Assembly (NCBI GenBank): GCA_937883785.1 | Contig: CALGDE010000027.1 | Span: 1 to 64,000, forward strand | Direction: 5' to 3' | Source of the DNA: an uncultured cyanobacterium | Lineage (GTDB): Bacteria; Cyanobacteriota; Cyanobacteriia; CACIAM-69d | DNA: 64,000 nt | In this document: positions 59,569 through 61,146 of the stretch, piece by piece | Layout: the number at the start of each line of letters is the position of its first letter | Numbering within the stretch: position 1 is the first letter of the stretch | Translations under genes and position numbers: made by a program | The notes under the pieces: generated by a model | The model's database searches: none | Seen by the model: only the letters and a program-made list of their open reading frames with translations | Told to the model about the DNA's origin: nothing

Positions 59569-60255
59569 GTGAAAGCAGTTGTTTTACTTTCCGGTGGCTT
59601 GGATTCGTCCACGGTGGTATACCAAGCGAAGGCGGACGGGTGCGAGTGTTACGCCATTTCCTTTGATTATCAACAGCGCCATCGTCGAGAACTGGATGCG
59701 GCACGGGCGATCGCCCAACTGGCAGGGGTGGTGCAACATCAAATTGTCAACTTCGACCTAACTCAGTGGGGTGGTTCAGCCCTAACGGACGACACCATTG
59801 ACTTGCCCAGCGATCGCCCCGTGGAAGCCATGGCGTCGGAAATCCCCGTCACCTACGTGCCCGCCCGCAACACCATTTTTCTCAGCTTTGCCCTGGCCTA
59901 CGCTGAAACCTTGGACGCAGAACGCGTGTATATCGGCGTGAACGCCCTGGATTACTCAGGCTATCCCGACTGTCGCCCTGACTATGTGGACGCCATGCAG
60001 GAGGTATTTCGCCTAGCCACCAAACAAGGACGGGAAGGCAATCCCCCACAGATAGTGTCTCCATTGCTGGAGCTGAAAAAGACCGACATCATTCGCCTAG
60101 GCAACCAGCTAGGCGTGCCCTGGGAAAAAACCTGGTCTTGCTATGCAGGTGGCGATCGCGCCTGTGGGCGCTGTGATTCCTGTCTATTGCGCCTAGCAGC
60201 TTTTAAGGAGCTTGGCCTAGAGGATCCGCTACCCTACGATGCACCTTCCCCATAA
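59569..60255 (+). CDS. queC: 7-cyano-7-deazaguanine synthase
   Basis: QueC makes preQ0 from 7-carboxy-7-deazaguanine in the queuosine (tRNA modification) pathway. The 228-residue protein starts at GTG with KAVVLLSGGLDSSTVVYQA, the PP-loop ATP site, followed by DYQQRH and VPARNTIF. The zinc-binding Cys set is CYAGGDRACGRCDSCLLR (about 191-208), intact. It begins 62 bp after ispE and may share its transcript. Confidence 0.96.
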   Translation: MKAVVLLSGGLDSSTVVYQAKADGCECYAISFDYQQRHRRELDAARAIAQLAGVVQHQIVNFDLTQWGGSALTDDTIDLPSDRPVEAMASEIPVTYVPARNTIFLSFALAYAETLDAERVYIGVNALDYSGYPDCRPDYVDAMQEVFRLATKQGREGNPPQIVSPLLELKKTDIIRLGNQLGVPWEKTWSCYAGGDRACGRCDSCLLRLAAFKELGLEDPLPYDAPSP

Positions 60256-60608: not shown

Positions 60609-60869
60609 TTTTCCACAGATAGTGATCACGCACCCTGGGCATGGGGATTGCCAAGGGGGACCACACTATACCTAGTGCGATCGCCCCAAAAACCGTGAAA
60701 CCCCTTTAGTTACGTTGTTTTAACAGCAAGAATTTTTTATTTTTTCAAAAAGTCTTCCACAGCGTTTCCACAGTTTTTCCACAAGATCCCAAAAGTTTTC
60801 CACAGCCCAACGGGAGTTTTCCACAGCCCTTAGCGATCCCATAAGGGTTTAGGGCGTTTCTGTGGAATT
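60609..60869. other. DnaA-box cluster, candidate replication origin
   Basis: The exact box TTTTCCACA, reported as the cyanobacterial DnaA box, occurs at 60609, 60775, 60796 and 60817. Near matches are TCTTCCACA (60753), GTTTCCACA (60764) and, inverted, AATTCCACA (60861-60869). An AT-rich tract (about 60714-60750, including TTTTTTATTTTTTC) stands just before the main cluster, like a DNA unwinding element. The region sits in the 890-bp gene-free gap between queC and the DUF2811 gene. dnaA or dnaN are not in the window, so origin function is inference. Confidence 0.6.
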
Positions 60870-61146
60870 CTCCCCCTGTGACGGTCGATTCTCAGAAAAG
60901 GACGCTTTTTATTGCGGAATTTTAAGTCGAAACGGCTGAAAGCCTGATCCCTTCGTTGGCAGCCATTTCAAAAACAACGAAAAATGACAGGGTGCCGCGT
61001 TGACAACCTCCGGTCCCCGTAACGAGAATAGTGCCGCAGCCGGTTCCCTTCATCCGTCCTTAATCCGGCTTTCAAAACCCTCAAAATACAGTTTCAATAC
61101 GCTGTCAGCCCACTGCCACTGCTGTTCTCACGCCGGAGCCTTGCCC

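Follow-up and report, generated by a model that had tools for sequence, protein, structure and literature searches.

What does a cluster of DnaA boxes do when it lies between queC and a small gene of the DUF2811 family in an uncultured cyanobacterium, with dnaN not adjacent to it? The stretch of DNA that we analysed (64,000 nucleotides, hereafter the window) carries four exact copies of TTTTCCACA, the box that is bound by cyanobacterial DnaA (PMC4674748, PMC7198777), at 60609, 60775, 60796 and 60817, just as an original prediction made from the sequence alone had stated. The last three stand 21 bp apart and are preceded by two near matches on the same strand, TCTTCCACA at 60753 and GTTTCCACA at 60764, which add two further steps of 11 bp and complete an array of five co-directional boxes (60753–60825, + strand; spacings 11, 11, 21 and 21), so that the predicted clustering and helical spacing are both borne out. 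A third near match within the same 260 bp, the weak box AATTCCACA (60861–60869, − strand), is inverted, has two mismatches, and lies 44 bp beyond where the last forward box starts. By eye, sequences resembling an inverted ATCCCCA/TTTCCACA lie near +44 in many DUF2811 loci, and an inverted box with at most two mismatches occurs at +44/45 in only 8 of 112 loci. The remaining exact box (60609–60617, + strand) is isolated, 144 bp upstream of the array, and is common to the same-genus genome only among the loci examined. Chance grouping is very improbable, as four exact boxes within 217 bp would be expected 4.5e-7 times genome-wide (Poisson, from 105 exact TTTTCCACA boxes in a 4.84-Mb genome). The AT-rich tract that was said to precede the cluster is present directly upstream of the array (60706–60755, 78% AT versus 47% across the window), and family matches confirm the neighbours as queC (59569–60255, + strand) and a 109-aa DUF2811 gene (PF10929; 61147–61476, + strand; E = 9.7e-23). 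The surrounding genes had also been described as pointing toward the cluster, and here the prediction was mistaken: queC reads toward it, while DUF2811 reads away. No credible Rfam match was found in the 58–64 kb region of the window.

Clustered boxes with an adjoining AT-rich tract, itself a feature of oriC, had led to the proposal that this is the chromosome origin, and the array does resemble the cyanobacterial oriC beside dnaN (PMC4674748) in its box sequence, its 11- and 21-bp spacings and its AT-rich flank; it differs in lacking dnaN and DnaA-trios and in having nearly all of its boxes in one direction. The proposal is refuted by the same genome, where contig C15 carries exactly the stronger cluster beside dnaN that the prediction had named as evidence against itself: ten boxes, facing both ways, immediately precede dnaN and are accompanied by DnaA-trios, (TAG)4, and an extended AT-rich tract. 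Another gene of the dnaN family lies on contig C14 (77076–78194) and shares 58% identity with the dnaN next to oriC. DnaA-trios, which take part in origin unwinding (PMC8287927), accompany 13 of 14 dnaN-side clusters and none of ten arrays near guaA (see below), and none was found when the window cluster was searched for them; a TA-rich trio match occurs in 10 of 113 DUF2811 arrays, mostly in Nostocales, where it reads TAATAATAA on the opposite strand. The dnaA gene is also located elsewhere in the genome, and GC skew over 76 kb of the contig has no clear switch near 60.7 kb, although the signal is noisy in this fragmented assembly. Judged on these sequence features the window cluster is not oriC, and that it should act as the chromosome's origin, or as a second one, is barely credible.

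The position of the array across cyanobacteria points instead to the gene downstream. For this comparison DUF2811 loci were taken from 39 relatives and from 80 named genomes; dnaA was checked directly in the relatives, in ten named genomes and in the set of 390 genomes described below, and its presence was taken for granted in most of the 80 named loci. Leaving aside genomes known to lack dnaA, 116 loci were counted: 113 of them have two or more chained boxes upstream of DUF2811 and on its strand, and 89 have three or more. The same loci yielded 0 arrays on the opposite strand, 0 with the reversed pattern, and at most 2 with any of 200 permuted 9-mers. Spacings of 22 bp predominate (157 times), followed by 21 (36) and 11 (28). 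The chained array is absent from three genomes in which dnaA is present (G018, G037 and G013). Clusters of three boxes in the relatives are found mostly beside dnaN, downstream of guaA or upstream of DUF2811; a few lie near none of these genes (L053 7046–7096, L068 8589–8639, and another in L058). The pairing with queC is restricted to the genus, and queC was rejected as a conserved partner of the array.

Between array and gene lies a conserved, sigma-70-like promoter (61000–61029, + strand; TTGACA, 18 nt, GAGAAT). An exact TTGACA is present between the array and the ATG in all 114 of 114 loci, versus 3.6 for control hexamers, and in 95 of 121 loci it starts 173–175 bp beyond the array (174 bp in the window), a count favoured by our choosing, in loci with several TTGACA, the one nearest 174. 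The distance from TTGACA to the ATG, by comparison, varies from 111 to 274 bp (10th–90th percentile); the array is thus placed relative to the promoter. Most of the remaining loci depart from this array–TTGACA spacing by about one helical turn (163–166 and 183–187 bp), a phasing that is weak (P = 0.03, 15 cases). Alignments also reveal that AAGCCTGATCCCTTCGT (60940–60956, + strand) is conserved in the stretch from array to promoter and that a AAACCCTGAT..TTTCGT block is conserved across the array-to-gene interval (60826–61146 in the window, and aligned loci); a loose pattern, used with no control, places an HLR1-like (RpaB-type) motif in the array-to-promoter stretch of 39 of 114 loci. We regard the array as belonging to DUF2811, not to queC, and as a very old, rigidly built element kept across the class.

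We therefore read the cluster as a regulatory array through which DnaA controls the DUF2811 promoter, and DUF2811 as a gene whose product acts in the DnaA pathway or downstream of it, and we give this reading a probability of about 0.72. DnaA would occupy the helically phased boxes, all facing one way, and, from a constant 174 bp ahead of the −35 element, act on RNA polymerase at the TTGACA promoter, either as an activator or as a repressor. At about 174 bp the array is unusually distant for a classical activator, which counts against the reading and means that the DNA must be assumed to loop or wrap. Expression of DUF2811 would thereby reflect how much DnaA is present or which nucleotide it carries, and the DUF2811 protein may work in or below that pathway, perhaps by feeding back on DnaA itself. 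A parallel exists in the DnaA-activated sda promoter of Bacillus subtilis (PMC4447404, PMC8203912), where several DnaA boxes likewise lie upstream of the promoter of a small-protein gene, and the DUF2811 locus has the same kind of feature, a DnaA-box array at a constrained distance upstream of a promoter. The two differ in that sda belongs to another phylum, has no known sequence relation to DUF2811, and encodes a protein that acts on sporulation kinases, whereas the DUF2811 array keeps a rigid spacing to the −35 element and DUF2811 mostly disappears along with dnaA.

This joint loss was followed in 390 genomes, each at least 95% complete, with dnaA scored as absent where no match reached E <= 1e-20. 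DnaA dependence has been lost several times in cyanobacteria (PMC7198777), and dnaA is absent from 18 of the 390. Whereas 370 of the 372 dnaA-bearing genomes have DUF2811 (the two exceptions being drafts of 380 and 460 contigs), 13 of the 18 dnaA-less genomes have no DUF2811 match, two have copies broken by stop codons (pseudogenes), and three have intact genes. The association is strong (Fisher 2.6e-22; 3.9e-13 at genus level), although these values overstate independence, since the counts are phylogenetically non-independent and the dnaA-less set comprises some eight lineages by genus label, counted without a tree. Several genera (g78, g130, g134 and g82) hold both states, and the losses were therefore repeated. 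Genome shrinkage was rejected as the cause because dnaA-bearing genomes of only 1.5–1.8 Mb keep DUF2811, and the dnaA-less ones measure 2.8–5.9 Mb. Going by gene content, DUF2811 thus usually tends to disappear when dnaA does, which is why we place it in the DnaA pathway. The three dnaA-less genomes with intact DUF2811, together with Richelia intracellularis HH01, count against the reading proposed above. Even in those three the array is decayed, with zero, one or three near boxes left, and two chained boxes are kept in only one of six DUF2811 loci from dnaA-less genomes. Richelia HH01 (G039, L144) was first picked out by its missing array, and only afterwards was its dnaA found to be broken into pieces that contain stop codons; the genome keeps DUF2811 and TTGACA, while the other Richelia genome has both an intact dnaA and the array. 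The possibility that some protein other than DnaA reads the TTTTCCACA-like repeats is very unlikely, as the motif equals the boxes bound by cyanobacterial DnaA (PMC4674748) and exact box pairs vanish genome-wide without dnaA, being found in 2 of the 18 dnaA-less genomes versus 12 of 12 matched dnaA-bearing ones.

The DUF2811 gene also occurs in 13 plasmid records, with an array upstream in seven of the nine examined; among these records are large cyanobacterial plasmids (L235–L240 and L242) whose DUF2811 genes have their own DnaA-box arrays. By this sequence evidence, the array moves together with the gene. None of 50,697 phage records carries DUF2811, and one IMG/VR contig (L233) encodes a DUF2811 protein but lacks boxes over the 900 bp that precede the match. 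Plasmid copies would add DnaA-binding capacity, as would suit a DnaA titration or nucleotide-exchange site that times initiation and beside which the neighbouring gene is incidental. The E. coli sites datA, DARS1 and DARS2 (PMC5010248, PMC4585315) are, like the window array, clusters of DnaA boxes outside oriC, and the genome has a second such cluster of strong boxes: its third array overall, downstream of guaA (contig C153, 3008–3069; spacings 11, 11, 10 and 21) and found in a dozen relatives as well. This guaA-side array resembles the DnaA-binding region downstream of gcp and ydiF in B. subtilis (PMC4447404), also outside oriC and at gene ends, from which the window array differs in lying upstream of a promoter. 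The guaA-side array was not found in the genomes tested from four families (f30, f32, f33 and f34) nor in G010, G018, G026 and G034, and its far-side neighbours vary; it is therefore limited to some lineages, and a matching array everywhere was rejected.

Titration nonetheless leaves unexplained why the DUF2811 array is fixed to one promoter, always on the DUF2811 strand and at a set spacing, why it travels onto plasmids, and why it decays once dnaA is lost. Whereas E. coli datA and DARS keep their relative distance from oriC (PMC5010248), the array lies about 0.93 of 4.68 Mb, 0.23 of 5.46 Mb and 1.17 of 4.44 Mb from oriC in the closed genomes G023, G029 and G010, or some 4% to 26% of the chromosome. 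The array is furthermore retained in Nostocales, even though Nostoc sp. PCC 7120 can do without DnaA for replication (PMC7198777). We thus consider titration an unlikely primary role, one that may act in addition to control of the DUF2811 promoter.

The DUF2811 protein itself offers few clues from its structure. Models of DUF2811 are helical at modest confidence (pLDDT 63 and 73; the AlphaFold model, at 73, is all-helical), and comparison with the PDB gave no match below E 0.27 by sequence or below E 1 by fold. A ribbon-helix-helix protein is unsupported, given the all-helical model and a CopG profile comparison of 0.2% that used an approximate CopG sequence. Neither DUF2811 nor PF10929 is mentioned in the literature searched, which mostly excluded subscription journals. 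Its promoter and pattern of loss suggest that this small, uncharacterised cyanobacterial protein could be a DnaA partner or target that has so far escaped study. We put at even odds the more specific idea that DUF2811 belongs to the DnaA pathway as a component peculiar to cyanobacteria, such as a feedback regulator, and that its promoter is read by a class-wide DnaA array. dnaA is essential in Synechococcus elongatus, and the candidate role is testable there. Little is known of how DnaA is controlled in cyanobacteria, for which DUF2811 is now a concrete candidate; if the idea is true, array, promoter and gene would form a phylum-specific circuit for the control of initiation.
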